54,362 nt of DNA from Cytophagales bacterium Ga0077538 (lineage in GTDB: Bacteria > Bacteroidota > Bacteroidia > Cytophagales > Cyclobacteriaceae), in assembly GCA_001464155.1 (NCBI GenBank), contig LNEN01000305.1:92297-146658 (forward strand). Reading direction: 5' to 3'. Positions 12,153 to 29,888 of this stretch are shown here, one piece after another. The position numbers were made by a program, and so were the translations under genes. A model generated the notes under the pieces. The model ran no database searches, had not been told where the DNA came from, and saw nothing but the letters and a program-made list of their open reading frames with translations. Positions within the stretch are counted from its first letter, which is position 1. The number at the start of each line of letters is the position of its first letter.

Positions 12153-12222
12153 TAGTATCGGGATGGAGTGGCCCGGCGTAGCAGTGTCAGTTGGCGCTGT
12201 ACTTGTAAACACGCTTGCAGTG
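12153..12222. repeat. composite hairpin element, copy 1
   Basis: On the plus strand: TAGTATC, a stem TCGGG/CCCGG, the core GCGTAGCAGTGTC (12176-12188), then a weaker stem GGCGCTG/CAGTGCT with two G-U pairs. On the minus strand it precedes the tRNA-like gene. The minus-strand TGA in CTGACACTGC serves as the stop codon of the upstream microprotein gene. Confidence 0.75.
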
Positions 12223-12354
12223 CTGTGCAGTATCAGGAAGGCTAGTTCGGCAAGCAGCAGATTTAATACCTAATTTTTGAAGGAAGAATAAGAATTGACG
12301 TAAAGTTTTAATATCTTTAATTAAACTATGTCTTATCGGATGGAATGACTGCAT
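12187..12354 (-). CDS. LGIKSA microprotein (55 aa)
   Basis: MQSFHPIRHSLIKDIKTLRQ then FLFFLQKLGIKSAACRTS, a clear member of the microprotein family, and nearly the same as the member at 33958-34140 (FLFFLRDLGIKSAVQPS). It overlaps the upstream member by 29 nt in another frame. Its stop codon is part of the composite element core. GCGGAAAA precedes the ATG. Confidence 0.65.
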   Translation of the reverse strand: MQSFHPIRHSLIKDIKTLRQFLFFLQKLGIKSAACRTSLPDTAQHCKRVYKYSAN

Positions 12355-12505
12355 ATTTTTCCGCAAATATCCTTAATGCTCGCATGTGATTGCCTTCAAA
12401 TTGCGCTTTAATTCCTAGTTTACGAAGTAAACGAAAAAGCTTTTGAGTAGAAGACATCTGATTAAGAAGTTTATCTAAACTAATTTGAGTCGATAATGAG
12501 CTCAT
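12326..12505 (-). CDS. LGIKA microprotein (59 aa)
   Basis: The core is KLFRLLRKLGIKAQFEGNH, followed by RALRIFAEKYAVIPSDKT. The start could be the ATG at 12505, which overlaps the upstream gene, or ATG 12457 (43 aa); neither has a strong ribosome site. It has the family layout of a leucine-rich helix, the KLGIKA turn and a short tail. Confidence 0.6.
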   Translation of the reverse strand: MSSLSTQISLDKLLNQMSSTQKLFRLLRKLGIKAQFEGNHMRALRIFAEKYAVIPSDKT

Positions 12506-12785
12506 CTATATCCATTCCTAAAAGGATGTAATCTATAGATCTATCTTCATGCCACTTTTTAAATTCTTGTTGAATAGAACCTTGAATATAAGAGTGACTG
12601 CCATCTTTACTTTTCATATAAAGATTTACTTCGCCATTCTTTTCTTTTACAGCGGTAATTTTGCCAAATGAAGTTTCAGATGAAGATGTAGCACGAACCC
12701 ACTCAGGTGCCCACCAATATGGAACTCCACGTTTACTTTTATGATCTGGATCTCGCAGAGGTCTTTCTACTTTTTTCTTGCTCAT
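12480..12785 (-). CDS. hypothetical protein with YWWAPEWVR motif (101 aa)
   Basis: A basic start (MSKKKVERPLRDPDHKSKRG) leads to the aromatic YWWAPEWVRATSSSETSFGKI, then a beta-rich half and an acidic end. GTGAGG precedes the ATG. It overlaps the upstream gene by 46 nt. No function recognised. Confidence 0.75.
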   Translation of the reverse strand: MSKKKVERPLRDPDHKSKRGVPYWWAPEWVRATSSSETSFGKITAVKEKNGEVNLYMKSKDGSHSYIQGSIQQEFKKWHEDRSIDYILLGMDIDELIIDSN

Positions 12786-13038
12786 GTTTCCTCACTCGTT
12801 CTCGATAGCATCTATATTGCCACTCTTCGTGATCATGCCAATCTGTTTGAATAACACATGCATCTTTGTCGATAACACTTAATCGTTTCAGAAAGGATTC
12901 AAGTGTTTTAATGATGCGCATACCTTCTGTAATGTCGTAACGTTCTTCAAGGTATTGTTGTTGTGACAATTCCCGTAATTCCTTTTCCTTCACGCGCTGC
13001 TTTAGCCAATTTATCACAGCCTTCATTATGCTCATCAC
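12739..13038 (-). CDS. small protein related to the microprotein family (about 99 aa)
   Basis: Contains IIKTLESFLKRLSVIDKDAC followed by VIQTDWHDHEEW, which keeps the leucine-pair helix but has lost the KLGIKSA core. The 'V-I-x-x-D-W' tail resembles FQDWCNW in the 22716-23078 protein. The start (13038, 13035 or 13026) lies inside the RNase H gene in another frame, a 92-nt overlap for the longest reading. Confidence 0.65.
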   Translation of the reverse strand: MMSIMKAVINWLKQRVKEKELRELSQQQYLEERYDITEGMRIIKTLESFLKRLSVIDKDACVIQTDWHDHEEWQYRCYRERVRKHEQEKSRKTSARSRS

Positions 13039-13411
13039 CGGAGTGTCCTTTCACCCAACGTGTACTTGCTCCAATAGTTTGGTATATTCTTCTAAGTTGT
13101 ATATAAAGCGGGGCAAGGTGGATAGCTTTACATTGATAGGCACCATTTGCATATCCGAGTACAAGCTGTGAGTCAGAGATAAGCACGACTTGGAAAGGAC
13201 CCTGTGATTGTATTTCTGGACGGTTGATATAGGCGGAAGCCTCTTCAAGACCTTTGATTGCGGCAGTAATTTCTGCAACGTTGTTAGTAGCGCTAGACAG
13301 ATATCCGTTCCCCTCACCAAGCAAGGCACCGTTAACGACGAGTCTCCATCCATAGCCGCCATCAGAGTTAAATGTATTCCCGGAGCCATCTGCATATATT
13401 TCTACTTTCAC
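12947..13411 (-). CDS. rnhA: ribonuclease H (type I)
   Basis: 154 aa. The catalytic carboxylates are in order: Asp in YADGSGNT, Glu in NNVAEITAAI, Asp in ISDSQLVLGY, and the final Asp in HNEGCDKLAKAA after the WVKGHSG loop. The enzyme cuts RNA in RNA-DNA hybrids and would remove primers with the ligase and nuclease encoded further left. It overlaps the upstream microprotein stop by 4 nt. Confidence 0.96.
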   Translation of the reverse strand: MKVEIYADGSGNTFNSDGGYGWRLVVNGALLGEGNGYLSSATNNVAEITAAIKGLEEASAYINRPEIQSQGPFQVVLISDSQLVLGYANGAYQCKAIHLAPLYIQLRRIYQTIGASTRWVKGHSGDEHNEGCDKLAKAAREGKGITGIVTTTIP

Positions 13412-13596
13412 TTAGTAATCCTTAATTTAAACTCTTTTGCTTGTTGAATTAAATCATCACCTATTAATATAGGTGACCATGATGCTGGTGGATTAAGTCT
13501 ATTAAGAAATAATTCACTCTTTAAGCCTAATTTAATTAGAAACAATTGAAGCGCTGCTAATACTTTAGCGTCAGCATCATGTGGACTAGTTATCAT
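13408..13596 (-). CDS. LGLKS microprotein (62 aa)
   Basis: MITSPHDADAKVLAALQLF then LIKLGLKSELFLNRL, a family member with Leu for Ile in the core. Its ATG follows directly on a TATACT-like sequence in the divergent 37-bp gap shared with 13634-13900, and there is no clear ribosome site. Its end overlaps RNase H by 4 nt. Confidence 0.7.
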   Translation of the reverse strand: MITSPHDADAKVLAALQLFLIKLGLKSELFLNRLNPPASWSPILIGDDLIQQAKEFKLRITK

Positions 13597-13598
13597 AG

Positions 13599-13604
13599 TA
13601 TAAT
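13599..13604 (+). promoter_or_regulatory. TATAAT box
   Basis: TATAAT, then AAGGAG, then the ATG at 13634. It lies in a very short divergent gap. Confidence 0.5.
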
Positions 13605-13633
13605 GATCCTATCTTATTAAGGAGATTATACTT

Positions 13634-13900
13634 ATGGCAATGGCACCTGCAGCACTCAAATCTAAGATGAAAGAGACTATCTATAATGGTCTCAAAGCTC
13701 AGTTTGGTTCATCTGCATCGCAAGGCCAACAGTATTCTCCTATCGCTGACGAACAATGGCAAAAGATGGCTGAAGCTATCTCTGGTATTGCAGCTGATAT
13801 TGTTATGGAAATAACTCAGAATGCTCAGGTCTTACCTGGTATTCCTACTGCTGGTGGTCCAACAAATCAAGCTACTGTTGCACCAGGTAAAATTCTTTAA
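13634..13900 (+). CDS. small phage protein (88 aa)
   Basis: MAMAPAALKSKMKETIYNG opens a helical protein whose centre, WQKMAEAISGIAADIVMEI, is followed by a low-complexity tail rich in Pro, Gly and Thr. This layout recurs in small virion-associated phage proteins. It stands alone on the plus strand with its own TATAAT and a strong AAGGAG. It may be a minor structural component expressed with the late genes. Confidence 0.75.
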   Translation: MAMAPAALKSKMKETIYNGLKAQFGSSASQGQQYSPIADEQWQKMAEAISGIAADIVMEITQNAQVLPGIPTAGGPTNQATVAPGKIL

Positions 13901-14178
13901 TACTTGCTTTTAATTTTAAATGATTCTATCTTATTAGCACGAGGCTCTTGCTTTTCACTAGCAGGATAGATTTCTACGGTCATAGTTTGAACTGTATCTT
14001 CTTCTGTTGGTGTTTTAATACACTTTAAAGTAAGACAATTAACCATAACACCACTACCAGGATCTTCTTGTGTTATGCCGATTTCAACCTCAAAATCTTT
14101 TTCATCATTGCTGTAACCAATCATGGTGTATTTAAGTTTATTAAGAACCATGTCTAGTTGTCTACCACTGATTTTCAT
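13897..14178 (-). CDS. hypothetical protein (93 aa)
   Basis: Predicted alpha/beta, soluble, basic at the C-terminus. It starts after AAGG and meets the plus-strand gene end to end with a 4-nt overlap. No family recognised. Confidence 0.7.
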   Translation of the reverse strand: MKISGRQLDMVLNKLKYTMIGYSNDEKDFEVEIGITQEDPGSGVMVNCLTLKCIKTPTEEDTVQTMTVEIYPASEKQEPRANKIESFKIKSKY

Positions 14179-14381
14179 TACTTACCTTTTTGTTTAAAAG
14201 TTGCTCTTGCTGTATTAGCAAAATCTTTAAACTCTTCTAAGTGATTAGATAAAGCAATTGCTTTCTTAGAACCTAAAGAGAATAAAGGATAGTCACCGAC
14301 CTTATTACCTTGGTCATCAACTTCCCATACTGCAAACATTTTATTACCCTTAAACTCTTCAAAAAATACTTTCGTCTTCAT
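14178..14381 (-). CDS. hypothetical protein (67 aa)
   Basis: MKTKVFFEEFKGNKMFAVWE then VDDQGNKVGDYPLFSLGSKKA. This is a compact beta-alpha phage protein with a KKA-x-ALxxH helix. I start at 14381 behind AAGGGATGG rather than at the further upstream ATG, which lies in the neighbouring gene. Function unknown. Confidence 0.75.
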   Translation of the reverse strand: MKTKVFFEEFKGNKMFAVWEVDDQGNKVGDYPLFSLGSKKAIALSNHLEEFKDFANTARATFKQKGK

Positions 14382-14706
14382 AAACCATCCCTTTTCCACG
14401 ATAATTTCTCGGTTCAGAATCAAAGCCACCTTTGATAAAGCGCATTTCAAGACAATCAATGATGTTTAGAGCTTGATCAATAGCCATATTGAAAGCTCGC
14501 TTTTCTTCTAATCTAGAATTAAACATTTTTTTAGGAAAATTAAATTCAATTTCAGTTCTAAGACCTTCAATTTTAGTTTTAATAATATCTAAGTTCTCAA
14601 GTCCAGATGAAGCAATACCAATACAATCTTTCATTGCAAGGCGATAAGCATCTTTATTCTCTTGAGATCCTAATCTGCTATATACATAGTTACCTGTCGA
14701 TCTCAT
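14359..14706 (-). CDS. hypothetical helical protein (115 aa)
   Basis: Starts MRSTGNYVYSRLGSQENKDA at 14706, overlapping the metzincin stop. All-helical with no catalytic motif. Overlaps the next gene by 23 nt. Confidence 0.7.
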   Translation of the reverse strand: MRSTGNYVYSRLGSQENKDAYRLAMKDCIGIASSGLENLDIIKTKIEGLRTEIEFNFPKKMFNSRLEEKRAFNMAIDQALNIIDCLEMRFIKGGFDSEPRNYRGKGMVYEDESIF

Positions 14707-15208
14707 TAGTAAGATTATTGTTTCCAACACACTCAGGACTGATGTTGAAGAGCTCATCAACTAGTTCCTCCCTATTAGACTTATAATAGTCGGCATCTAA
14801 AGACAATGGATGCATGATAGATATTGGCCCATATTCATTTAATTTTATACAATGTTCTCTACCCATAAGACAATGGCCAAGTTCATGAAACATTAATTCT
14901 TCTCTTTCATGTATGCTCATTTCATACCAAGTTGGTTTATGTATTTTAATAAAAACACCATACAAAGGACTTACGTAACAATAGCCAATTGCTGTGTCTT
15001 CCGCTTTTAATCTTAAATTTGCAAACTGTATATTCACATTAAGTAAGCTAACTGAGTGTCCACGAAATTCAGCCTCATACATAAATGATTGCAATACAAG
15101 ACTAAATTCAGGATCAATTGGGTTATATAAAGTATCTTTTTCAACTTTATTAAAAGTGATGGTACAACTAATTAATAAGATTATTAAAAAGATCACAAAC
15201 GTTCTCAT
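14690..15208 (-). CDS. metzincin-type zinc protease, predicted lipoprotein
   Basis: 172 aa. The signal peptide MRTFVIFLIILLISC carries a lipobox-like end with Cys15. The zinc site is FHELGHCLMGREH, the extended HExxHxxGxxH-type consensus with Met-Gly before the third ligand, and the Met-turn is SIMHP. It would be held in the envelope and act in the periplasm or on the surface. A second enzyme of the same design is at 21693-22193; apart from the active site they are quite different. Substrate unknown. Confidence 0.85.
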   Translation of the reverse strand: MRTFVIFLIILLISCTITFNKVEKDTLYNPIDPEFSLVLQSFMYEAEFRGHSVSLLNVNIQFANLRLKAEDTAIGYCYVSPLYGVFIKIHKPTWYEMSIHEREELMFHELGHCLMGREHCIKLNEYGPISIMHPLSLDADYYKSNREELVDELFNISPECVGNNNLTNEIDR

Positions 15209-15223
15209 AACCATTCTCCACTA

Positions 15224-15229
15224 TATAAT
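15224..15229 (+). promoter_or_regulatory. TATAAT box, 6 nt before an ATG (leaderless)
   Basis: TATAAT, six bases, ATG at 15236. No Shine-Dalgarno sequence is possible in a transcript begun there. The region also reads as TATATTATA toward the minus-strand metzincin gene. Confidence 0.5.
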
Positions 15230-15235
15230 ATAACT

Positions 15236-15505
15236 ATGAACTGCAAAATCTGTATTTTAGCTCACATGTTACAACATTCTGAACTTCTTTTTTGGGTTAA
15301 ATGCCCAACATGCGGATATACAGAATTTGTACCAGAAGCTCATGCTCGCTATAAGAATGCATGCAAATATGCTACAAACTCTCTAGTGCAGAAGAGGAAA
15401 TGTAGCTCAGAAGAACAATGCGATTGTCCCATCGTTTCACATACGGAACAGCAGATTCAGGCGCTTCAATGTCGAAAACCTTACCCTCCTGCGGCTGAAG
15501 AGTAA
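15236..15505 (+). CDS. Cys-rich zinc-ribbon-like protein (89 aa), antisense overlap at the end
   Basis: MNCKICILAHMLQHSELLFW followed by CPTCGYTEF gives two CxxC pairs, as in a zinc ribbon. The 3' 134 nt run antisense to the convincing gene at 15372-15584, and the C-terminal part looks less like protein, so the true coding part may be shorter. The ATG is six bases after a TATAAT box with no ribosome site. Confidence 0.5.
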   Translation: MNCKICILAHMLQHSELLFWVKCPTCGYTEFVPEAHARYKNACKYATNSLVQKRKCSSEEQCDCPIVSHTEQQIQALQCRKPYPPAAEE

Positions 15506-15584
15506 TCAAAATATTATCTCCATTTTTAGATATTAGTCTAATTTGAATTGGAGATGATTCGTCATTTATGTAATAGATTTTCAT
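15372..15584 (-). CDS. hypothetical beta-rich protein (70 aa)
   Basis: MKIYYINDESSPIQIRLISK, then ITLQPQEGKVFDIEAPESAV and PYVKRWDNRIVLLSYI. Predicted all-beta with the look of small phage proteins seen beside virion genes. Its ATG overlaps the upstream stop (TAATG), so it is translated by coupling. No function assigned. Confidence 0.8.
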   Translation of the reverse strand: MKIYYINDESSPIQIRLISKNGDNILITLQPQEGKVFDIEAPESAVPYVKRWDNRIVLLSYISSSALESL

Positions 15585-15868
15585 TAGTAATTCCATTGCA
15601 ATGCTAATGCATTGCCTTTAGGATCAATGTTTAAATTTAAGTTCTTATGAAGTTTAAATACGGCAGGCTTACCTACTGCAATAGCATAAACAGGAGTGAG
15701 GGTGTAGACTATATACTCGTGACCTTTAATTAATCTTTGACCTATTTCTTCGGCATTTTTAACTGCTTCTTGCAATTGCTTATTTGATTGATAATAAGCG
15801 GCACTAGCTTGATTACAGCCTGTTTGACCAACAATACAAGTTGTAGCTACTAATGCCTCTAATAACAT
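15584..15868 (-). CDS. hypothetical protein with hydrophobic N-terminus (94 aa)
   Basis: MLLEALVATTCIVGQTGC could be a weak signal peptide. An AAYYQSNKQLQEAVKNAEEIG helix and a beta-rich half follow. Function unknown. Confidence 0.7.
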   Translation of the reverse strand: MLLEALVATTCIVGQTGCNQASAAYYQSNKQLQEAVKNAEEIGQRLIKGHEYIVYTLTPVYAIAVGKPAVFKLHKNLNLNIDPKGNALALQWNY

Positions 15869-16096
15869 TTAGAATTCCTCTGAATGAGAATAGCCTTCAT
15901 CTGTGAATATTGCTCTATTATGATTATAAGCAAGCATTTCACATAAAGCGTAATCAATGTCTTCATCTTTAACACCAAGAGCTTCCATAAGAATAGAAGC
16001 TTTTTCAATAGAATCAAACTTATCATGAACAATAGTTCTAGTAACTACATGTGTAACTATCCATTCATTGCTTTTCTTTACTAAATTAACATTCAT
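15869..16096 (-). CDS. hypothetical protein (75 aa)
   Basis: Short alpha/beta protein with the helix FDSIEKASILMEALGVKDED. AAGG precedes the ATG. It abuts the next gene. Unknown function. Confidence 0.7.
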   Translation of the reverse strand: MNVNLVKKSNEWIVTHVVTRTIVHDKFDSIEKASILMEALGVKDEDIDYALCEMLAYNHNRAIFTDEGYSHSEEF

Positions 16097-16105
16097 ATTA
16101 ACCTT

Positions 16106-16339
16106 TCAGTCTTCATAAGAAGCACCATCATCATACTCTGCCATATAGCGAACATCGTTACAACCACAATCATCATTATGATTTTCACAATACTCACAAA
16201 AATCCTCTGATTGTGTATCAGTTAATTCAGATAATTTTTCTTCTGCTGAGTTAATACCAATTGATAGTAAAAAACTCATTAACCCAATGGTAATAGTAAC
16301 ATCTTCTAAGCTATATAGACTAATCTTCTTGGACTTCAT
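16106..16339 (-). CDS. LGIKSA-related protein with Cys-rich acidic tail (77 aa)
   Basis: ITIGLMSFLLSIGINSAEEKL keeps the family spacing (LL, GI, SA) with INSA for IKSA. The tail FCEYCENHNDDCGC is cysteine-rich and could bind a metal. It differs from the other members in having this tail. Confidence 0.65.
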   Translation of the reverse strand: MKSKKISLYSLEDVTITIGLMSFLLSIGINSAEEKLSELTDTQSEDFCEYCENHNDDCGCNDVRYMAEYDDGASYED

Positions 16340-16472
16340 GAAGTTTAACCTTATTGTTTCGCTTATAGTCTTTAATAGACTTATGGCGTTTGTTAGAAGG
16401 AAGCGAAAGACGGGTTACCGGCTTACTAAGCTTAATTTTCTCTTTAAGTTTCTTTCGCTTTTGTTTATTCAT
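16320..16472 (-). CDS. basic microprotein (50 aa)
   Basis: MNKQKRKKLKEKIKLSKPVT then RLSLPSNKRHKSIKDYKRNN. About one third Lys or Arg, so probably nucleic-acid or membrane associating. It overlaps the next gene by 20 nt. The ribosome site is weak, which lowers confidence. Confidence 0.5.
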   Translation of the reverse strand: MNKQKRKKLKEKIKLSKPVTRLSLPSNKRHKSIKDYKRNNKVKLHEVQED

Positions 16473-16474
16473 AA

Positions 16475-16669
16475 CTACTCGTTAAAGTATTTTTGTTGTA
16501 AAGCTTTCGGTAAGAGATCTACTTCAATCTCAACAACCTTTTCTTTAGGTTGAGAAGAGCGTTGACCTCGTGGTTTTTGAGCTTGTACTTTCTTGATTTC
16601 ATTTCCTTGGCTTAAGAACACAGCCATACCAGCTTCTAACTGTTGACGCATATTTTGTTTTGATTTCAT
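16475..16669 (-). CDS. small phage protein (64 aa)
   Basis: MKSKQNMRQQLEAGMAVFLS followed by QGNEIKKVQAQKPRGQR. This short helix-then-basic-tail layout (a helix ending 'AVFLxxGxxIKKV') is common in phages without known function. AGGAG precedes the ATG. Confidence 0.75.
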   Translation of the reverse strand: MKSKQNMRQQLEAGMAVFLSQGNEIKKVQAQKPRGQRSSQPKEKVVEIEVDLLPKALQQKYFNE

Positions 16670-16681
16670 ATTAGTTCTCCT

Positions 16682-16972
16682 TTAGAAATATATTGGTTCA
16701 GGAACAGTTTTGGCGCAACCTTCTGATTCACGCTCAATAGCAATCTTTACCATTTTAGCTGTATTAAGTTTCAAATTACCAGCCATTTGCTTATTAAATT
16801 GCTCATCAGTCATTTTAAAGAATGTATCGCATTTATTGATTTTAATGCGAATCATGTGATGTTTACCATATACTGAACTCGGCATATCTACTTCATATTC
16901 AAATGCTTCAGAGCATTGAGGCATTAATAGTAAACTTAAAGCTAAAACATATATTCCAAATGCAATTCTCAT
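16682..16972 (-). CDS. secreted small protein (96 aa)
   Basis: MRIAFGIYVLALSLLLMPQC followed by SEAFEYEV is a typical signal peptide with cleavage probably after SEA. The mature part holds two cysteines that could form a disulphide. AAGGAG precedes the ATG at 16972. Function unknown; it adds to the exported proteins in this segment. Confidence 0.8.
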   Translation of the reverse strand: MRIAFGIYVLALSLLLMPQCSEAFEYEVDMPSSVYGKHHMIRIKINKCDTFFKMTDEQFNKQMAGNLKLNTAKMVKIAIERESEGCAKTVPEPIYF

Positions 16973-16973
16973 A

Positions 16974-17291
16974 TTATCTCCTTGTTTGGTTGTCAGTTTC
17001 AACCGCATGCCTAATTCTTCCTAAATCACCTTCGATATTAGAACTATTAGAGCTATATGGTCTATTAATAACTAATCCAAGCATTCCAAAGAAAAACATC
17101 GGAAGGCCAGGAATAAATATCAGTATGAATAGAATCGTCGATAGTGGCATAATTGCTTGATGCGCTGTAAAGATCATATCTATTACAAACGGCAGTGATA
17201 AGCAAAAGCCAACTATAGCAAATATAGCTGCGTTAAGCTTTCTTAACACCATTGTTTGCCTATTATTTCTAATTTGTGTAGTTTTTCTCAT
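16974..17291 (-). CDS. two-helix membrane protein (105 aa)
   Basis: Basic N-terminus, then hydrophobic segments at about 20-42 and 50-77 (ILFILIFIPGLPMFFFGMLG), then a soluble charged tail. A TCTGAAACTAA box lies just before its start. Unknown function; a holin-like topology is possible but nothing else supports it. Confidence 0.75.
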   Translation of the reverse strand: MRKTTQIRNNRQTMVLRKLNAAIFAIVGFCLSLPFVIDMIFTAHQAIMPLSTILFILIFIPGLPMFFFGMLGLVINRPYSSNSSNIEGDLGRIRHAVETDNQTRR

Positions 17292-17300
17292 AATGTATTT

Positions 17301-17309
17301 TAGTTTCAG
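17301..17309 (-). promoter_or_regulatory. CTGAAACTA junction box
   Basis: The minus strand reads TCTGAAACTAAAATAC, 10 nt before the ATG of the two-helix membrane protein and directly after a rho-independent terminator. Confidence 0.55.
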
Positions 17310-17312
17310 ATA

Positions 17313-17348
17313 AAAGAAATAAAGATGGGAAGATTATTAGTCTTCCCA
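17313..17348 (-). terminator. rho-independent terminator
   Basis: Minus strand TGGGAAGA-CTAATAA-TCTTCCCA followed by TCTTTATTTCTTTT. It ends the transcript of the QKEAV-family gene 17390-17875. Confidence 0.75.
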
Positions 17349-17389
17349 CCTGCGCTTATTTAATTTGCAACGCTGTGACGCTTCAGCAA

Positions 17390-17875
17390 TTACTTAATCA
17401 TTGATTGTAATGCAGCTGGCAATACAGAAGCATCAATCACAGTCTTCTTAACTTTAGAAGCTTGGATTTCGCTAACTCGATTGTCAATTGCAGTTTGCAC
17501 TTCAGCTTTATCAGCATCAGTCGTAAGTGTGGTCAATAGAGCTCGCATTGCTTTAAGCGAAGGATCAGAAGATCCGATGCGTGATCCAGGGTTTTTAGCA
17601 GAGTATTTAGCTCCACCATTAAGACGTTTGTCTTTGCGCAACCAGTTTGATTGCAAACCAGAGACATAAGCCTTAAGATCTGAGTCAGCATACTGACGAT
17701 CTAATTCTACAGATCCACTACGAAATCCTTCGAATAAGACTTGGTTTACCTGTGAACGTAATTCACGGGTCATCAACGTCGAAACATCTGTACCTTCTGA
17801 TACTGTGATGTTGTTCTCATTGAGAACAGACGTGACTGCATTATAAACAGCTTCTTTCTGAGACATTTTGGACAT
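17390..17875 (-). CDS. QKEAV-family phage protein (161 aa)
   Basis: MSKMSQKEAVYNAVTSVL begins a helical N-terminus. A conserved middle follows (LFEGFRSGSVELDRQYADSD then SGLQSNWLRKDKRLNGG and YSAKNPGSRIGSSDPSLKAM), with a helical tail. Three close copies and one distant copy occur in the window. The NWLRKDKRLNGG and KNPGSR stretches are basic and invariant, suggesting nucleic-acid or ligand contact. The gene lies between two terminators, with AGGAGG before its ATG, so it is a single-gene unit. Confidence 0.9.
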   Translation of the reverse strand: MSKMSQKEAVYNAVTSVLNENNITVSEGTDVSTLMTRELRSQVNQVLFEGFRSGSVELDRQYADSDLKAYVSGLQSNWLRKDKRLNGGAKYSAKNPGSRIGSSDPSLKAMRALLTTLTTDADKAEVQTAIDNRVSEIQASKVKKTVIDASVLPAALQSMIK

Positions 17876-17891
17876 AAAATTGTCCTCCTAT

Positions 17892-17920: not shown

Positions 17921-17940
17921 AAAATTAACTTTATTTCGGA

Positions 17941-18141: not shown

Positions 18142-18142
18142 A

Positions 18143-19660: not shown

Positions 19661-19684
19661 ACGACCTCCCATTATAGATATGTT

Positions 19685-19749
19685 GTATCGGCGGGAGTAC
19701 CCGAGCAAGGGCGCCGGCGTAGCAGTGTCAGCACTTAGTGGGGTGCTGA
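19685..19749. repeat. composite hairpin element, copy 2
   Basis: Plus strand: TATCGGCG/CGCCGGC stem, core GCGTAGCAGTGTC (19717-19729), then TCAGCAC/GTGCTGA stem. It lies between a terminator and the gene 19373-19660 on the minus strand. Confidence 0.8.
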
Positions 19750-19756
19750 GTAGGGA

Positions 19757-23078: not shown

Positions 23079-23079
23079 A

Positions 23080-23344: not shown

Positions 23345-23345
23345 G

Positions 23346-24185: not shown

Positions 24186-24336
24186 AAATAAAATACTTAT
24201 GAATCAATACAGCAAATAAAGTAGACATCATGAAACTACTTGTTGTTAGTCCACCAACTATTCCTGAAAGTATTAACCATACAATAGAGTTAAATACTAA
24301 ATAAATACCTAAAGATTGCAAGTAAGCCTTGTTCAT
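24166..24336 (-). CDS. small membrane protein (56 aa)
   Basis: MNKAYLQSLGIYLVFNSIVW with two hydrophobic stretches (LILSGIVGGL and FMMSTLFAVLI). AAGGAG precedes ATG 24336. Confidence 0.7.
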   Translation of the reverse strand: MNKAYLQSLGIYLVFNSIVWLILSGIVGGLTTSSFMMSTLFAVLIHKYFIYGRKSS

Positions 24337-24344
24337 GTAACTCC

Positions 24345-24542
24345 TTATCCAACTTGTGGAATATCTTTCCAAACTAATTCATTTTGAGGATCTGCAATAA
24401 TCTCTGCTTCTTGGTCAGTACCAGAGCGATATACTTTACCGCCTTTGTTTTCCTGCAAGAAAGCAATCACCATTTCAGAGTTCATCCATTGTCTTTTTAA
24501 TTCTAGTTTTGCTGTAATTGTTAATGCCCAAAACTTATTCAT
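24345..24542 (-). CDS. hypothetical protein (65 aa)
   Basis: MNKFWALTITAKLELKRQWM opens a small alpha/beta protein. GGAGG precedes the ATG. A CTGAAACTA box lies 24 nt upstream. Confidence 0.7.
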   Translation of the reverse strand: MNKFWALTITAKLELKRQWMNSEMVIAFLQENKGGKVYRSGTDQEAEIIADPQNELVWKDIPQVG

Positions 24543-24566
24543 ACAATACCTCCAGATGGTTGTTTT

Positions 24567-24575
24567 TAGTTTCAG
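24567..24575 (-). promoter_or_regulatory. CTGAAACTA junction box that includes a stop codon
   Basis: Minus strand ATCCTGAAACTAAAAAC. The TGA in the box is the stop codon of 24572-24952. The next ATG (24542) is 24 nt downstream. Confidence 0.6.
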
Positions 24576-24952
24576 GATTTAAGTCCAAGAATAATTTGTT
24601 CAAATGGTTTACCAACTTTTGCATATTCAATTTGATTTTTAACCCAAGACTTAAAAGCATCAATGTCACCTTTATGGTTACCACCTATATTAACTATTGT
24701 TTCTTTATCTTGTGTGCGAAGTTGCTCAACAGACATTAAACCACTACCATACAGTCGAGTCTTTTTCCAGTCATATAGTGTAAATGTAATATCGGCCTCG
24801 TCATCATGGAACACCCATTCACCACTTACTTTGTGACCATCACTCTCCATTGGCTCACCAAATGCTAATATAAGATCTTTATATACAACACTTATCTCAC
24901 CCATTCGACTAGTTCCATTGACAGAATGCGAGTCATTACATACTTTAAACAT
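24572..24952 (-). CDS. conserved-looking hypothetical protein (126 aa)
   Basis: FGEPMESDGHKVSGEWVF followed by ITFTLYDWKKTRLYGSGLM gives a compact beta-rich fold, then KGDIDAFKSWVKNQIEY. The 'GEP-x-DG-K-EW-x-T-x-YDWK' layout recurs in small phage proteins without known role. It is the first gene after composite element copy 3. Confidence 0.75.
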   Translation of the reverse strand: MFKVCNDSHSVNGTSRMGEISVVYKDLILAFGEPMESDGHKVSGEWVFHDDEADITFTLYDWKKTRLYGSGLMSVEQLRTQDKETIVNIGGNHKGDIDAFKSWVKNQIEYAKVGKPFEQIILGLKS

Positions 24953-24973
24953 ATATTCTCCGATGTTTGTTTT

Positions 24974-25040
24974 TAGTTTCAGGATACAGTGCTGGGACTA
25001 TGAGCTCCCGGCGTAGCAGTGTCAGTTGCCCATGGGCAAA
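24974..25040. repeat. composite hairpin element, copy 3
   Basis: Plus strand: TAGTTTCAG box, stem GCTGGGA/TCCCGGC (7 pairs including one G-U), core GCGTAGCAGTGTC (25011-25023), stem TTGCC/GGCAA. It lies between a terminator-like hairpin and gene 24572-24952. Confidence 0.8.
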
Positions 25041-25075
25041 TGAAGATACCAAGCCCCGCTTAACAGGCTTGGTAT
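25041..25075 (-). terminator. terminator-like hairpin
   Basis: Minus strand ATACCAAGCC-TGTTAAGCGG-GGCTTGGTAT then CTTCATTT; ten perfect pairs but only a modest T run. A second hairpin, AAGCGGGA/TCCCGCTT at 25142-25163, sits right after the QKEAV stop. Confidence 0.6.
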
Positions 25076-25169
25076 AGGTGTTGGGTTATGCGCCACTTTT
25101 GGTACGACTTGCGTCGTTAGATTTTATTAGAATGTGGGGATAAGCGGGACTTGCATCCCGCTTAATAAA

Positions 25170-25631
25170 TTACTTTTGGAATTTAGCTGCAAGGTCAGCA
25201 GGCAAAGCTGAGAAATCAACAGGCTTAGCTTTAACTTTGCTAGCATTGATCTCTTGGATGCGAGCGTCGATGTAACCTTGAACTTCTGATTTTTCTTCTT
25301 CAGTAGTCAAAGTTGTTAACAATGCACGCATTGCTTTCAACGATGCATCGCCAGAACCAGCTCGTGAACCTGGGTTTTTAGCTACGTAGCTAACTCCACC
25401 GTTCAATCGCTTGTCTTTGCGCAACCAGTTTGACTGAAGTCCTGATACATACGACTTCAAGTCTGTATCAGAAAACTCACGATCAAGTTCGATAGTTCCA
25501 CTGCGGAAACCTTCAAACAGAATCGCGTTCACTTGAGCGCGCTGCTCTTTTGATGGTGTGTAAGAGTCTTGCTCTCCACATACATTCTTTACGGCCTGGA
25601 AAACTGCTTCTTTCTGAGAAATCTTAGTCAT
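25170..25631 (-). CDS. QKEAV-family phage protein (153 aa)
   Basis: MTKISQKEAVFQAVKNVCGE, then LFEGFRSGTIELDREFSDTD, SGLQSNWLRKDKRLNGG and YVAKNPGSRAGSGDASLKAM. Very close to 17390-17875 and 29900-30364. I start at the ATG behind GGGAGGTT, not at the longer frame. It is flanked by hairpins, again a single-gene unit. Confidence 0.9.
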   Translation of the reverse strand: MTKISQKEAVFQAVKNVCGEQDSYTPSKEQRAQVNAILFEGFRSGTIELDREFSDTDLKSYVSGLQSNWLRKDKRLNGGVSYVAKNPGSRAGSGDASLKAMRALLTTLTTEEEKSEVQGYIDARIQEINASKVKAKPVDFSALPADLAAKFQK

Positions 25632-25701
25632 ATTAACCTCCCGAGGTTTGACTATTAATTTTCTTGATGAACCATTCACCAAGTTTTTTGTTACTTCATT
25701 C

Positions 25702-25710
25702 TAGTTTCAG
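25702..25710 (-). promoter_or_regulatory. CTGAAACTA junction box that includes a stop codon
   Basis: Minus strand ATCCTGAAACTAGAA. Its TGA ends the gene 25707-26042. The QKEAV gene start is about 70 nt downstream. Confidence 0.55.
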
Positions 25711-26042
25711 GATTTATTGGGTTTCACAATTTTAGTTTGTGCATTGTTAATTAGTTGATTTATATCAACATGAACACCCATATCTACAAGAGCAAGCATT
25801 AAAGCTTTAGTCTTTGCAGGACTAATAAATCCTCTTTTCTTTCTTTTAGGTTTATATTCTTTCATTCCATTAGCTGCAGAACATAATCCATGATTGTGAT
25901 ATAGTTGATCACCATTTTTCATGCCAAATTCTTCGGCCAAAACAGAAGGGACATTTTGCCAAACCATACCTGGGCGATTATATACTTCAATTGCTTTTAA
26001 GACAACTTCTTGTGGGTAATTTTTATAGTTACCAATAGACAT
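25707..26042 (-). CDS. hypothetical basic protein (111 aa)
   Basis: YPQEVVLKAIEVYNRPGMVW then PSVLAEEFGMKNGDQLYHNH suggests a helix-turn-helix-like N-terminal half, followed by the basic KEYKPKRKKRG linker. DNA binding is possible. AGGAGG precedes the ATG. Confidence 0.7.
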   Translation of the reverse strand: MSIGNYKNYPQEVVLKAIEVYNRPGMVWQNVPSVLAEEFGMKNGDQLYHNHGLCSAANGMKEYKPKRKKRGFISPAKTKALMLALVDMGVHVDINQLINNAQTKIVKPNKS

Positions 26043-26066
26043 AGATCCTCCTTTTATAAGGGATTT

Positions 26067-26075
26067 TAGTTTCGG
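26067..26075 (-). promoter_or_regulatory. CTGAAACTA-type junction box (CCGAAACTA)
   Basis: Minus strand TCCGAAACTAAAATCC, about 25 nt before ATG 26042. Confidence 0.5.
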
Positions 26076-26083
26076 ATAACAAC

Positions 26084-26284
26084 CTAGTGAAGGTTGTCGC
26101 TATCGCCATTGTCCTCTTCCATAAGCTCATCCATGTCCATGTCTTGAACAGCAGAGTTAAGGATAACAGCTCCATCATAGTCTTCGCTTTGTACTTCCAT
26201 AGCTAATTGCAATTCTTCAATCTGAGAAGCACTCAGATCAGATACATCAATCGACACAGTAAGTACTTTAAGCTTCTCGTTCAT
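26084..26284 (-). CDS. acidic hypothetical protein (66 aa)
   Basis: A beta-alpha start (LKVLTVSIDVSDLSASQIEE) and an acidic tail (DMDMDELMEEDNGDSD). AAGGA precedes the ATG. Unknown function. Confidence 0.7.
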   Translation of the reverse strand: MNEKLKVLTVSIDVSDLSASQIEELQLAMEVQSEDYDGAVILNSAVQDMDMDELMEEDNGDSDNLH

Positions 26285-26286
26285 GT

Positions 26287-26622
26287 TTAATCCTTTGTAA
26301 ATAAAGTCATTTCAAACAACTCTGAATCATAAAACTTCTTAAAATCTTTCATGCGAATACGTTGCTTCGTACTAAGCACTTCAATTGCTTCTATATGCCC
26401 ACTCCAATTCCATATAAACCTAACACCCATAGCAAGTCGCATTTGTCTCATTTCATGAGTCATCGCTTTCATGTTTTGTTTAGCTTTTCTATAGCCATTT
26501 ATAGCTTCTCGCTTACTAATATGGTCAGAACAACCATTATCGATATAGTAATGAAACCTACGTCTACGTCTATTTAATTCATTCTTTAAATGGCATAAAT
26601 ATATGAGTCTTTGTAAGTCCAT
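26287..26622 (-). CDS. basic helical hypothetical protein (111 aa)
   Basis: Arg-rich (LKNELNRRRRRFHYYIDNG), helical, then an aromatic WNWSGHIEAIEVL strand. It overlaps the upstream stop by one base. No family recognised. Confidence 0.7.
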   Translation of the reverse strand: MDLQRLIYLCHLKNELNRRRRRFHYYIDNGCSDHISKREAINGYRKAKQNMKAMTHEMRQMRLAMGVRFIWNWSGHIEAIEVLSTKQRIRMKDFKKFYDSELFEMTLFTKD

Positions 26623-27137
26623 TATTTTCCTTTTGTTTGGTTAATAAAACTCAAACCAATCATGTTAATTACTTCTAATGTCAGATCAGTTTTTCTATCC
26701 ATAGATAGAGAGTCATATTGAGGAAGACGACGATCAATAACCCATTCAGGTGCATTGAAACCTAAGTAATTAGCTATAAGCATAGCAAATGTATCAGCTC
26801 TAAACTCTTCCTCAGTCATTAAGTTCTTAAAGTCAGCTTGTATTTCCGAGTGCTTATTAGCTTTAACTAGTGTATGAATACCATGCTCTAATGAATAGCT
26901 AAGGAAGTGACCAAACTCATGAGCTAATACATAGTCTTCACTACCTTTAGGGCAATTACTCTCAAAAAAGAAGATAGAAGAGGCATCAGCTTGAGAGCTA
27001 TAAAGTCCATAAGCACCATGCATTGTGGCTTTAAACCAAGTACCTATATGGAGTTTCTGTAACTCTGAGTCCGGCTTAATAACACACCCATTATCACTAA
27101 TAAGTGCCAATAGTTTATTACTCACTGTCTTTCCCAT
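26622..27137 (-). CDS. ImmA/IrrE-like zinc peptidase (171 aa)
   Basis: The metal site is VLAHEFGHFLSYSLEHG, with a downstream EEFRADTFAMLIANYLG helix that can supply the third (acidic) ligand and the typical A-x-x-FA pattern of ImmA/IrrE peptidases. Members of that group cut repressors in mobile elements and phages. No signal peptide, so it acts in the cytoplasm, unlike the two metzincins. No repressor gene is seen beside it. Confidence 0.75.
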   Translation of the reverse strand: MGKTVSNKLLALISDNGCVIKPDSELQKLHIGTWFKATMHGAYGLYSSQADASSIFFFESNCPKGSEDYVLAHEFGHFLSYSLEHGIHTLVKANKHSEIQADFKNLMTEEEFRADTFAMLIANYLGFNAPEWVIDRRLPQYDSLSMDRKTDLTLEVINMIGLSFINQTKGK

Positions 27138-27140
27138 ACA

Positions 27141-27599
27141 CTAATCCTTCTTATCTTTTAAAGATGGAAGACCAATTAAGTCAGCTGCTTCAACATTGGC
27201 TAAAGGTAAGTCACCACAACCTAGCATTCGCTCAATACCCAACTCAGCACAAGCTCTCATATAAAGCTCAGTATTGTCAGCTTCAGACTCTTCAAAGTCA
27301 ATATATGGTTCAAGTGCTTCAACAAGCTCTTCATCAGTCATTTCTGCAAAGCCTTTACACCCATTGATAAGTAAATCCTCTATAATTTCTGTATCTAAGT
27401 TGTCACTAGTCATATCAGCTAAATAGACGTGGATTTCTTCACGAGTCTTATCACTCAGCTTAGGAGTTGGAATCTCTACTATGTCAAACTTAAACTCACC
27501 AACACCATAAGTGGCAAAAGCCTTCATTACAAGTTCACACTCAGCCCTAGTGCCTTCATGGATAAAGCTCCCAAAAGTATGTCTTACAGCATATTTCAT
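27141..27599 (-). CDS. acidic hypothetical protein (152 aa)
   Basis: A beta-strand start (MKYAVRHTFGSFIHEGTRAE), then acidic helices (DLDTEIIEDLLINGCKGFAE type pattern). GGAGG precedes the ATG. No motif recognised. Confidence 0.75.
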   Translation of the reverse strand: MKYAVRHTFGSFIHEGTRAECELVMKAFATYGVGEFKFDIVEIPTPKLSDKTREEIHVYLADMTSDNLDTEIIEDLLINGCKGFAEMTDEELVEALEPYIDFEESEADNTELYMRACAELGIERMLGCGDLPLANVEAADLIGLPSLKDKKD

Positions 27600-27601
27600 G
27601 G

Positions 27602-27745
27602 CTATTCCTCCACTATTACGTTATTGAGCATTTTCTCAATATTAGGTTGAACAGTAGCGAGCTCATCAAATAGAGTCTTAAACCCATATCCAACTACACC
27701 ACCAATAAAGCAGAATAGTAGCACTGTAAATAACATCTCTTTCAT
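27602..27745 (-). CDS. small membrane or exported protein (47 aa)
   Basis: MKEMLFTVLLFCFIGGVVGY then a short soluble tail ending NNVIVEE. One membrane segment. AAGGAG precedes the ATG, and a CTGAAACTA box lies further upstream. Confidence 0.7.
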   Translation of the reverse strand: MKEMLFTVLLFCFIGGVVGYGFKTLFDELATVQPNIEKMLNNVIVEE

Positions 27746-27772
27746 ACACTATCTCCTTGTTATATCGTTATG

Positions 27773-27781
27773 TAGTTTCAG
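27773..27781 (-). promoter_or_regulatory. CTGAAACTA junction box
   Basis: Minus strand TTTCTGAAACTACATAAC followed by GATATAACAAGGAG and the ATG at 27745. It lies 4 nt after the stop of 27785-27973. Confidence 0.55.
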
Positions 27782-27784
27782 AAA

Positions 27785-27973
27785 TTACTTAAGAACTGAG
27801 TCATCATCTGTTACTTGGCTAATATCTGCACGGTGCACTCTAAAAGAAATGCCATGTCCGTTAGTACACCAAATAACATCACCTTTCATGCTTATGACTT
27901 CACACCAATACGGATCACTACCATATTCGCATACTAGGACTAAAGAACCAACTGTTATATTAATGTCGTTCAT
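27785..27973 (-). CDS. small SH3-like hypothetical protein (62 aa)
   Basis: MNDINITVGSLVLVCEYGSD then YWCEVISMKGDVIWCTNG: an all-beta barrel-like pattern with three cysteines. AAGGA precedes the ATG. Confidence 0.7.
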   Translation of the reverse strand: MNDINITVGSLVLVCEYGSDPYWCEVISMKGDVIWCTNGHGISFRVHRADISQVTDDDSVLK

Positions 27974-27974
27974 A

Positions 27975-28342
27975 TCATTCCTTTGTTATATCTAGGCATA
28001 GTATCGGATCATCACTTCATCTAGTTCACCCACAACTAATAGGCCACTTCTAGCATCCACCTATAGCACTTATAGGATATAGCCTAGACTAAACCTAAGC
28101 CATACCTAGTTTTGTTATAGGGAGATATGAGAAGGAGAGCTAAACTGCTGAAAAGACTAGCTAGGATATAGTGAGGGCCTGGGGGCTGAGCGACGCCCAC
28201 CCTGAGTTGGCTTTCCCTATACATTTATCCTTGGCCTGTCTAAGCCTGTTCTTTCCCTATCTCTTATCCCCTCGTTATATCTAGGCATAGATTCAGGCTT
28301 GCTTTACATCTACCCGAGGCATTACCCGAGGGGTTTATCATG
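27975..28342 (-). other. gene-free stretch downstream of composite element copy 4
   Basis: No convincing reading frame. It holds two copies of a leader-like segment, minus strand CTATGCCTAGATATAAC (at about 27984-28000 and 28273-28289), each joined to a box variant (CCGATACTA at 27999-28007, CCTGAATCTA at 28288-28296). It is unusually rich in CTAG and CCTA. The rightmost part contains the run CCTCGGGTAATGCCTCGGG, an imperfect repeat. Because a composite element sits immediately upstream on the minus strand, it may encode an untranslated RNA. Confidence 0.45.
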
Positions 28343-28422
28343 TAGTATCGGGATGATTAGCCGAACCCAGAGCTCCTGGCGTAGCAGTGTCAGGTCCTGC
28401 CCGAGAAGGATCAGGACCTATA
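28343..28422. repeat. composite hairpin element, copy 4
   Basis: Plus strand: TAGTATCGGG, a region with stem CCAG/CTGG, core GCGTAGCAGTGTC (28379-28391), stem AGGTCCTG/CAGGACCT (8 pairs). On the minus strand the last stem begins about 14 nt after the stop of 28437-28610. Confidence 0.8.
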
Positions 28423-28436
28423 GGTAGATTGTCGGG

Positions 28437-28610
28437 TTATATTGTGACTGCTGTATTGGAGTATAGAGTAGCGGATGTATATAGACCAGATAAAAGTCCG
28501 TCTTCTCCTAGATGGATTAGGAATAATAGGTTGTCGGAAGAGTGTTCGTGCTCAGATCCATCTTTGTAAGTGACGGCCATTGTATACTTGAAGTCTTGCC
28601 AATCGATCAT
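28437..28610 (-). CDS. small hypothetical protein (57 aa)
   Basis: MIDWQDFKYTMAVTYKDGSE continues beta-rich to LYTSATLYSNTAVTI. AGGAGG precedes the ATG. Unknown function. Confidence 0.65.
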   Translation of the reverse strand: MIDWQDFKYTMAVTYKDGSEHEHSSDNLLFLIHLGEDGLLSGLYTSATLYSNTAVTI

Positions 28611-28694
28611 CTTATCCTCCTAGTGTTATGGACAGAATTTGAATCAGGTAGAAGAGTGAGTATAGCACGGTTGCAGATACAGCTAAGCCTTCCA

Positions 28695-28850
28695 TTAATT
28701 ACCTGCCATGTTGAAGTAATAAGCCTGTAGTTGCTGGTCAGTGCAGAAGTCGAAGCAGATGAAAGGATAGTCGTTGATGTCCATGCCAGACTTGCGGTAG
28801 GCTTCGTTTTGTAGGGCAAACAATAGCTTGATAAGTTCTTGACGGCTCAT
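28695..28850 (-). CDS. small hypothetical protein (51 aa)
   Basis: MSRQELIKLLFALQNEAYRK, with later cysteines in FICFDFCTDQQ. The ELIKLLFALQ helix is followed by no LGIKSA core. It overlaps the upstream gene by 4 nt (ATGA), which supports it. Confidence 0.65.
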   Translation of the reverse strand: MSRQELIKLLFALQNEAYRKSGMDINDYPFICFDFCTDQQLQAYYFNMAGN

Positions 28851-29029
28851 ATAGCTTCCTCCATATTAAAGCAAAGTTCTAAATCATCATTATTCATAGC
28901 CATAGCTGGAATACCTAAATCATGGGCTTTCTCTTCTTTAGCCATTGCTTCAGCTTTAGTTAAATTTCTAACTAATATTTCATCGGTTTCAAGATTAACT
29001 AAGTTCCAGCACTTCATGTTCTTACTCAT
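28847..29029 (-). CDS. small hypothetical protein (60 aa)
   Basis: CWNLVNLETDEILVRNLTKA then AEAMAKEEKAHDLG: strand-strand-helix. AAGGAG precedes the ATG. Coupled at both ends. Confidence 0.7.
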   Translation of the reverse strand: MSKNMKCWNLVNLETDEILVRNLTKAEAMAKEEKAHDLGIPAMAMNNDDLELCFNMEEAI

Positions 29030-29178
29030 ATACTCTCCTTTAGGTAATGTGGTTCATAGTTAGCAAGGAAATACTCGATCTCATCTAAGGTCCATCCATC
29101 GCATGTATCTACTACATCGGTATAGCCTGCATCTCTCATCTTCTGTAGTATCAGATTGCATTTATCTTGGTCGGTCAT
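29026..29178 (-). CDS. small hypothetical protein (50 aa)
   Basis: MTDQDKCNLILQKMRDAGYT then DGWTLDEIEYFLANYE. GGAGG lies 5 nt before ATG 29178. First gene after composite element copy 5. Unknown function. Confidence 0.65.
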   Translation of the reverse strand: MTDQDKCNLILQKMRDAGYTDVVDTCDGWTLDEIEYFLANYEPHYLKESI

Positions 29179-29204
29179 CATATCCTCCGTTGTTGTGATG
29201 GTGT

Positions 29205-29287
29205 GTAGGTTCAGGTATTGCCTCATAGTGGGGCTGAGCGTAGCAGTGTCGGCTGACGACCTGGGTTTCTAGCCCGTCGTCAGCCGA
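29205..29287. repeat. composite hairpin element, copy 5
   Basis: Plus strand: TAGGTTCAG box, stem GCCTCA/TGAGC, core GCGTAGCAGTGTC (29238-29250), then TCGGCTGACGAC/GTCGTCAGCCGA, 12 perfect pairs. The long stem begins 19 nt after the stop of the collagen-like lipoprotein gene on the minus strand. Confidence 0.8.
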
Positions 29288-29305
29288 TTAGGTTGGGTTG
29301 TATTA

Positions 29306-29797
29306 CTACCGTTCAATCTCACAGTTAGGCTTAACAGTGAATGAACAAGAGCTATTCACACCATTAGAGCTATATCTTCCTGGAGGGATAAGAGCCATGA
29401 ATCCGCCGTTAGTGCTATATACAGCATACAGCTGATTGCCTACACAGAATCCCACTTCATTGAACTTAGCAGGATAGCTTGTAACACCTGGACAGAATTG
29501 GATGGATGTAATTACCGTTCCATCTTGCCCGTCTTTCCCATCGGCACCATCATTGCCGTCATTTCCATTCGACCCATTTAGTATCAAGTTATTCGTTCCG
29601 TCAGTGCATGAGATAAGAGCTCCACCATTTGGAGCAGCAGGGTTAGCAGCGACAGAGCTTGCAGAGCAGCTTGATCCATCCTTGCCATCAGATCCGTCCT
29701 TACCGTCTTTGCCATTCAGTCCATCTTTAGGTTGAGCACAGCCAGAGAGAAGAGTGATTACTACAAGTGCACCAAATATAATTACGTTCTTATTCAT
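29306..29797 (-). CDS. short collagen-like lipoprotein (163 aa)
   Basis: Signal MNKNVIIFGALVVITLLSGC with a canonical lipobox, then Gly-x-y runs (DGLNGKDGKDGSDGKDG), a short interruption, a second run (NGSNGNDGNDGADGKDGQDG) and a C-terminal domain with four cysteines. Built like the larger protein at 20516-21646. GAAGGAG precedes the ATG. First gene after composite element copy 6. Confidence 0.88.
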   Translation of the reverse strand: MNKNVIIFGALVVITLLSGCAQPKDGLNGKDGKDGSDGKDGSSCSASSVAANPAAPNGGALISCTDGTNNLILNGSNGNDGNDGADGKDGQDGTVITSIQFCPGVTSYPAKFNEVGFCVGNQLYAVYSTNGGFMALIPPGRYSSNGVNSSCSFTVKPNCEIER

Positions 29798-29823
29798 TGT
29801 TTTCTCCTTCGTTATAATTAAGT

Positions 29824-29888
29824 ATAGGATCGGGCACTGAGCTCCCAAGCGTAGCAGTGTCATGCGCTGGTGTATTACCCAGCGCACA
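29824..29888. repeat. composite hairpin element, copy 6
   Basis: Plus strand: TAGGATCGG box, stem GGG/CCC round CACTGAGCT, core GCGTAGCAGTGTC (29849-29861), stem TGCGCTGG/CCAGCGCA. It lies 11 nt after the QKEAV stop on the minus strand. Confidence 0.8.

Follow-up and report, generated by a model that had tools for sequence, protein, structure and literature searches.

The element and its copies in the window

The window analysed here is the whole stretch of 54,362 nucleotides that spans positions 92297–146658 of contig C305, within the 3.96-Mb assembly of Cytophagales bacterium Ga0077538. Six places on its minus strand, which is the sense strand for the adjacent genes, carry an element in which a short constant core lies between an upstream hairpin (hairpin A) and a downstream promoter-like box. 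The contig is that of a myovirus, with matches to tail sheath, baseplate, portal and ribonucleotide reductase. An earlier sequence-only reading had described the six places as a constant 13-mer flanked by a box and two variable hairpins. The constant part stands: the 13-mer GCGTAGCAGTGTC matches exactly at 12176, 19717, 25011, 28379, 29238 and 29849, in one shared orientation, and is followed by TCA in five copies and by TCG in copy 5, as had been reported. On the minus strand this becomes [T/C]GACACTGCTACGC, and the core is treated below as the 14-mer TGACACTGCTACGC of that strand, which in copy 5 starts CGACAC instead. The placement at junctions holds as well, each copy lying, by open reading frame (ORF) calls, between two minus-strand genes, with a minus-strand tRNA following copy 1. 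No further exact 13-mer occurs in the host assembly outside the window, and the other 92 kb of C305 have no exact core and three one-mismatch places, which are coding-like and have no box. The features of the six copies are as follows, the spacer being that between core and box.

12176..12189, minus strand: copy 1, core TGACACTGCTACGC, spacer 14
12153..12161, minus strand: copy 1, box CCGATACTA, upstream of the minus-strand tRNA-Val at 12014-12086
12194..12214, minus strand: copy 1, weak bulged hairpin seen by eye; the minimum-energy fold is another one, in which TGAC is unpaired
19717..19730, minus strand: copy 2, core, spacer 25
19728..19749, minus strand: copy 2, hairpin A, takes in TGA of the core
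19683..19691, minus strand: copy 2, variant box CCGATACAA
19671..19676, minus strand: copy 2, TATAAT, 6 nt past the box
25011..25024, minus strand: copy 3, core, spacer 28
25022..25043, minus strand: copy 3, hairpin A with one internal mismatch, takes in TGA of the core
25047..25074, minus strand: terminator-like hairpin immediately upstream of copy 3
24974..24982, minus strand: copy 3, box CTGAAACTA
28379..28392, minus strand: copy 4, core, spacer 27
28391..28420, minus strand: copy 4, hairpin A
28343..28351, minus strand: copy 4, box CCGATACTA, ahead of a gene-free stretch
29238..29251, minus strand: copy 5, core CGACACTGCTACGC, spacer 23
29249..29287, minus strand: copy 5, hairpin A, with C1 of the core paired to G
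29206..29214, minus strand: copy 5, box CTGAACCTA
29849..29862, minus strand: copy 6, core, spacer 15
29859..29890, minus strand: copy 6, hairpin A, 12 pairs including two G·U, takes in TGAC of the core
29825..29833, minus strand: copy 6, box CCGATCCTA
29811..29816, minus strand: copy 6, TATAAC, 8 nt past the box

On the minus strand the box reads C[CT]GANNC[TG]A, a promoter-like motif. Its earlier formulation, TAGTWTCRG, is strictly present in copies 1, 3 and 4, while copies 2, 5 and 6 carry near variants. The longer hairpin said to adjoin the core is real, with 12 perfect outer pairs in copy 5 and 12 pairs with two G·U in copy 6, although that of copy 1 is weak and has TGAC unpaired.

Occurrence and conservation in related phages

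A scan of IMG/VR for the 14-mer returned at least 120 stretches, many with 2–5 copies; among the matches listed, many are, on our reading of the list, single chance matches in unrelated coding DNA. Thirty virus records, picked for holding the 14-mer, were searched over their whole length allowing at most one mismatch. Counting exact copies together with accepted variants, 26 of the 30 have 3–7 copies, the exact ones all sharing a strand and mostly falling inside some 22 kb, and G004, G014, G027 and G028 have one or two each. The remaining one-mismatch matches in these records fall on both strands and look like chance or coding sequence. With the tail sheath of the window as query, a relative was found in 17 of 18 records, namely the record of the window itself and 16 others at 52–70% identity. 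The eighteenth record, G004, has a single core match that is probably due to chance.

By tail sheath, the closest relative in culture is Myxococcus phage Mx1, at 33% identity; it lacks the core, the nearest place having 2 mismatches. BLAST searches of a phage collection with 251 bases round copy 3 and with window positions 35000–54362 found no DNA relative. A contig labelled Oligoflexales, from a bacterial metagenome-assembled genome, is likely a phage contig of the same clade, because it holds a core-plus-box match and two members of the small-protein family described below.

Conservation was counted in a set of 11 regions, the window and ten records, amounting to 270 kb and 55 cores. On the core strand of these regions, 51 places match exactly, 4 have one mismatch, one has two and six have three, and the opposite strand has no place with fewer than three mismatches. 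None of the two- and three-mismatch places is element-like except one in G012 with a three-base insertion. Over all element-bearing loci the believable substitutions in the core are T>C at position 1, T>C at position 7 and C>T at position 9, in a collection in which all records were found through the exact core and members with an altered core would be missed. Such substitutions are combined in two loci, L040 and L151, and in L108 the core that precedes the box differs in its middle part. A possible complementarity of 9 nt between the core and 16S rRNA was set aside and is not used here.

The hairpin upstream of the core

Hairpin A was assessed in 108 elements, obtained from 222 13-mer matches with enough flank by reduction to 172 distinct sequences, then to 156 below 85% identity, and then to loci with at least two copies or with a box following, the presence of a box thus being partly a selection rule. 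Compared with shuffles, the 40 nt before the core plus GAC fold more stably: z averages −2.57 and lies below −1 in 71% of the 108 elements; in the other 29% hairpin A is weak or absent. Its distance from the core ranges from overlap up to 7 nt (8 nt were searched), and in L014, L079 and L162 terminators with a U-tract adjoin the core.

Forty-six distinct stems among the 108 elements have at least 4 Watson–Crick pairs that end right before the core, and in these the stem can be followed into the core itself. The bases opposite TGAC are A or G for T in 39 of the 46 stems, C or T for G in 34, and T for A in 23; G stands opposite C in 16, which is not significant. Among non-Watson–Crick partners, wobbles of the core strand make up 31 of 50 against an expected third (p=3e-5), and wobbles of the opposite strand 13 of 53, which is not above a third. 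The stem therefore often takes in TGA(C) of the core, and selection acts on pairing in the core strand, whether this is RNA or single-stranded DNA. This bears out the earlier proposal of selection on structure for hairpin A, core bases included. The picture of a fixed core beside a variable paired hairpin at junctions is supported as well, with multiple copies in related phages.

The same counts do not support a hairpin on the plus (template) strand or a hairpin promoter of the N4 type. Promoters of the N4 virion RNA polymerase use a short template-strand hairpin, and the present element resembles them in having a hairpin near a phage promoter. In contrast to N4, however, the wobble pairs fit the non-template strand only, and the hairpins vary widely in size. 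A single-subunit RNA polymerase (PF00940) had no match in the assembly, although the control genomes gave no match either.

The second hairpin of the earlier description, between core and box, is not a feature of the family, and a composite of two hairpins is not supported. In 52 elements with a spacer of at least 14 nt it was compared with shuffled spacers (mean z −0.34; 27% below −1). Many spacers have no structure, although single copies, such as L030 and L031, do have a hairpin. As a general trait it was dropped, spacers being no better than shuffles.

The promoter-like box and its phasing with the core

The form of the box differs by lineage, being CYGAWACTA or close to it in the lineage of the window and CCGANTCGA-like in G007 and G008. 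A strict box follows within about 90 nt downstream for 39 of the 55 cores. The box is not confined to the element: across the 11 regions, 68 boxes without a core precede a ribosome site and start codon on the core strand, at least 3 in each region; the opposite strand, where genes are fewer, has 1. The box is thus a separate element. Three of those in the window are as follows.

27998..28007, minus strand: box without core CCGATACTAT, upstream of a minus-strand gene
26066..26075, minus strand: box without core CCGAAACTAA, upstream of a minus-strand gene
24566..24575, minus strand: box without core CTGAAACTAA, upstream of a minus-strand gene

The relation between core and box was studied in 102 elements with a box score of at least 11, taken from 200 distinct matches of which 176 are below 75% identity. 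The 74 that were dropped are largely chance 14-mers outside the clade, as judged from the list, together with some true elements with variant boxes like CCGATCTTA; a few of the 102 (e.g., L023) are possibly chance matches themselves. In 14 of the 102, against 2.0 in shuffles, a TATAAT (5 of 6 bases or better) lies 8 nt past the box.

The spacing from core to box clusters at about 7, 15–16 and 26 nt, with 19 elements at 4–8 nt, 37 at 13–18 nt and 22 at 24–29 nt; the troughs separating these groups contain 4 and 7, and 13 elements have a spacing above 29 nt. At a period of 10.5 bp, the repeat of B-DNA, the Rayleigh R is 0.416 (n=102), a value reached by none of 5000 smoothed null resamplings; an earlier, smaller set of 69 elements gave p=0.0008. 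Two lineages with different boxes agree in phase, with R of 0.42 (n=49) and 0.43 (n=45). With one element per locus (n=54) the mean R is 0.39. When the box matrix was permuted, none of 300 permutations reached the observed nR² of 17.7, the largest being 8.3. The phase is seen both in elements with a strong hairpin A (R=0.48, n=51) and in the 38 of the 102 in which hairpin A is weak or lacking, with z above −1 (R=0.40, p=0.0018).

The distance between site and promoter is accordingly limited to one helix face, as in a phased upstream activator site. The 10.5-bp phasing argues, in our view, for a part played by the core as duplex DNA, whatever else it may do, and we take the spacing as evidence that it would act in this form together with the promoter. 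The RNA-processing site of the earlier reading is possible. The earlier hint of a role in transcription gains support in this way, the element being phased on a promoter-like box.

A candidate for a protein that reads the box comes from the clade itself. Matches to sigma-70 region 2 (Sigma70_r2) at E<=1 occur in five of the ten clade records (G002, G007, G008, G009 and G010), four of them over the family cut-off (G002, G007, G008 and G009), and it is possible that this protein reads the box; the phage of the window gave no match to Sigma70_r2. Separately, the divergent minus/plus region at 30450-30800 of the window is C-rich and contains the words CCTATTAGG and CCTAATAGG; it may be an early promoter region.

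Genomic context of the cores

Gene orientation was counted with callers that take account of ribosome sites, in place of a crude ORF caller that was too noisy for counting. The first core in each of the 11 regions is preceded by at least one gene on the same strand, and for 49 of the 55 cores a same-strand ORF of at least about 30 amino acids, with a ribosome site that is weak or better, ends no more than 260 nt upstream. The element stands ahead of genes, a tRNA and apparently noncoding stretches alike, which fits a role in transcription.

Close-set cores flank stretches of 169–283 nt in which no gene is evident in L014, L031, L040, L054, L075 and L112, and some of these units may therefore be small RNAs; the stretch in L040 has an ORF of 23 codons. 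The stretches at L112 1194-1393, at L031 5074-5357 and in L075 (minus strand, cores 219 nt apart) share TCCGG(n)GG...CCTAAAATG, possibly a conserved small RNA, and have no Rfam match at gathering score. A motif GGGCGTCG at 28191-28200 of the window (minus strand), in the gene-free stretch after copy 4, recurs in the stretches after cores in G001, G012, G017 and G008, and is possibly part of a conserved RNA.

Small proteins beside some cores

Four paralogous small proteins of about 140-170 amino acids are encoded in the window.

671-1096, minus strand: small protein
17390-17875, minus strand: small protein
25170-25682, minus strand: small protein
29900-30364, minus strand: small protein

They share the motif YVSGLxSNWLRKDKRLNGG...KNPGSR and belong to a family with 82 distinct members in the loci examined, those of the window included. 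A core follows 13 of the 31 members in the 11 regions, against a rough chance of about 12% if 40 genes a region are assumed. As candidates for a factor that binds the core, the four window copies matched no PHROG family, 55 members gave stray weak matches only in NCBIfam and Pfam, and tblastn against the phage collection found no relative. The structure model is mostly helical and of good local confidence (predicted local distance difference test score 90, predicted template modelling score 0.62), and fold comparison gave no informative match except one uncharacterised phage protein.

Among other features of these contigs, at L144 4459-4534 and L147 (part of C305 beyond the window) ARAGORN reports a tRNA with a CUA anticodon, labelled tRNA-Pyl, together with 17 tRNAs as a set on this phage contig; the phage possibly reads a stop codon. 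The protein encoded at 36176-37708 of the window (plus strand) includes a NUDIX-like stretch and has weak matches to portal and scaffold.

Interpretation and alternatives

We lean, without strong conviction, towards reading the element as a transcription-unit boundary in large myoviruses, in which a terminator or 3′ hairpin would abut or overlap an upstream promoter element that is held on one helix face of a phage promoter. The reading rests on features of the sequence, namely recurrence, orientation, near-invariance, phasing, base pairing and the enrichment of TATAAT. On the sense strand the proposed order is the end of a gene, hairpin A, the core of 13–14 bp, a spacer of about 7, 16 or 26 bp and the box C[CT]GANNC[TG]A, after which would come, in some copies, TATAAT about 8 nt on, then a ribosome site and the next gene, tRNA or apparently noncoding stretch. 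Hairpin A would end the previous unit as an intrinsic terminator or 3′-end hairpin, its 3′ arm often sharing TGA(C) with the core. The core itself is probably the docking site of a transcription factor, a sequence-specific and probably phage-encoded protein that would contact RNA polymerase at the box from one helix face, and the next unit would have its promoter in the box and its −10. Taking TATAAT as the −10 would put the centre of the core near −43, −52 or −62 by our own arithmetic. Literature searches, one of them for the letters of the core, listed no paper on the element and gave no transcription data for these phages.

Among the systems compared, the closest described case is that of the T4 middle promoters (MotA box plus TATAAT), where a box centred at −30 lies 12±1 bp from TATAAT (PMC2988021). 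The present box may likewise take the place of a −35 upstream of a TATAAT-like −10, in front of many small genes, although most elements have no strong match to TATAAT. The sequence of the box differs, however, the distance to TATAAT is 8 nt where one is found and not 12±1, and the present element has in addition a near-invariant core further upstream. Class I and class II activator sites of the CRP type, which for CRP lie at −41.5 or −61.5 (PMC2859248), likewise stand upstream of the promoter in positions that differ by a helical turn, similar to those proposed here though not identical with them. In contrast, the core is a non-palindromic, near-invariant site of 14 bp in one orientation, and of its proposed positions the one near −50 would be poor for CRP at promoters of either class. 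Intrinsic terminators likewise have a stable G+C hairpin at the end of the upstream unit, and in L014, L079 and L162 a T-rich stretch ends at the core; most copies, by contrast, have no U-tract, and the 3′ arm often enters the core.

Several observations weigh against this interpretation. A T-rich stretch (at least 5 T in the last 10 nt) precedes the core in only 13 of 102 elements, so most hairpins A are not textbook terminators. TATAAT stands 8 nt past the box in no more than the 14 elements mentioned, with a second peak at 2 nt (10 versus 1.8), window copies 3 and 5 have no clear −10, and for 16 of the 55 cores the following 90 nt or so contain no strict box. Six of the 55 have no same-strand ORF within 260 nt upstream, and a second gene caller places the nearest gene on the opposite strand upstream of 8 of the 55 cores and downstream of 3; some of these opposite-strand neighbours are probably spurious ORFs. 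As to the phasing, 13 permuted matrices with at least 30 matches gave R up to 0.425, at smaller n, and the elements are related by descent, so that the p-values are optimistic. No cognate protein for the core was identified. Furthermore, an activator site is not usually so nearly invariant (51 exact copies of 55, the remaining 4 with a single changed base), and from lineage to lineage it is the box that differs, the core having stayed the same in records that were all found through its exact form. This near-invariance is hard to explain by an activator site alone and is not fully explained. The overlap with an RNA hairpin may add a second constraint on TGAC, though not on the rest of the core.

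An alternative, which we regard as improbable though worth serious attention, is that hairpin A and the single-stranded core ACUGCUACGC are one RNA signal that forms the 3′ end of the upstream unit, either as a terminator bound by a phage factor or as an endonuclease site, the promoter being merely adjacent. It would account for a stem that takes in TGA(C) with G·U pairs enriched on the core strand (31/50 versus 13/53), for the T1>C of copy 5 being matched by G in the partner arm, for believable substitutions that are all pyrimidine transitions (positions 1, 7 and 9), and for the first core of the 11 regions coming after at least one same-strand gene. An RNA signal of this kind predicts no helical phasing between core and box, however, and phasing persists in the 38 of 102 elements whose hairpin A is weak or missing (R=0.40, p=0.0018), nor does it sit easily with a distance between hairpin and core that varies from overlap to 7 nt.

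The RNA pairing and the DNA phasing could both hold if the core were read twice, as RNA that closes a terminator or 3′-end hairpin and as phased duplex DNA, so that termination and initiation would be coupled at one site, recognised by a factor across the clade. This is a rather doubtful extension of the transcription-unit boundary reading. A specific form of such coupling, in which polymerase released at hairpin A would be kept by a factor bound to the core and would restart at the phased box, seems unlikely to us. It would join pairing with phasing, and two constraints would give the near-invariance of the core, but there is no direct evidence of polymerase retention, and boxes without a core also follow hairpins (window 17300 and 26066).

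A boundary of recombination cassettes, with sites like attC in the form of hairpins between small genes, is very improbable. Its appeal lies in a core that is all or none, an adjoining hairpin, the single orientation, the small genes between copies and the paralogs by some cores. attC sites have conserved boxes on both sides of the hairpin, whereas the strictly conserved letters of the present element are on the 3′ side only, next to a phased promoter box. A self-cleaving ribozyme or known regulatory RNA, whose anatomy a short fixed strand with a variable helix resembles, is extremely improbable, since the only Rfam match of the window at gathering score is to tRNA, lax Rfam searches of four loci and of the copy 4 stretch gave sub-threshold matches only, and one of the two helices is not conserved.

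Implications for the phage clade

The clade is known here from assemblies only, and on the transcription-unit boundary reading it would gain a map of its transcription, in which the box marks starts, the hairpin marks ends and the core marks a special class of boundary. The combination of a near-invariant core with a diverging box is odd and points to a factor that may be under two constraints at once. The dual reading of the core, if true, would amount to a compact example in which termination and re-initiation are coupled.

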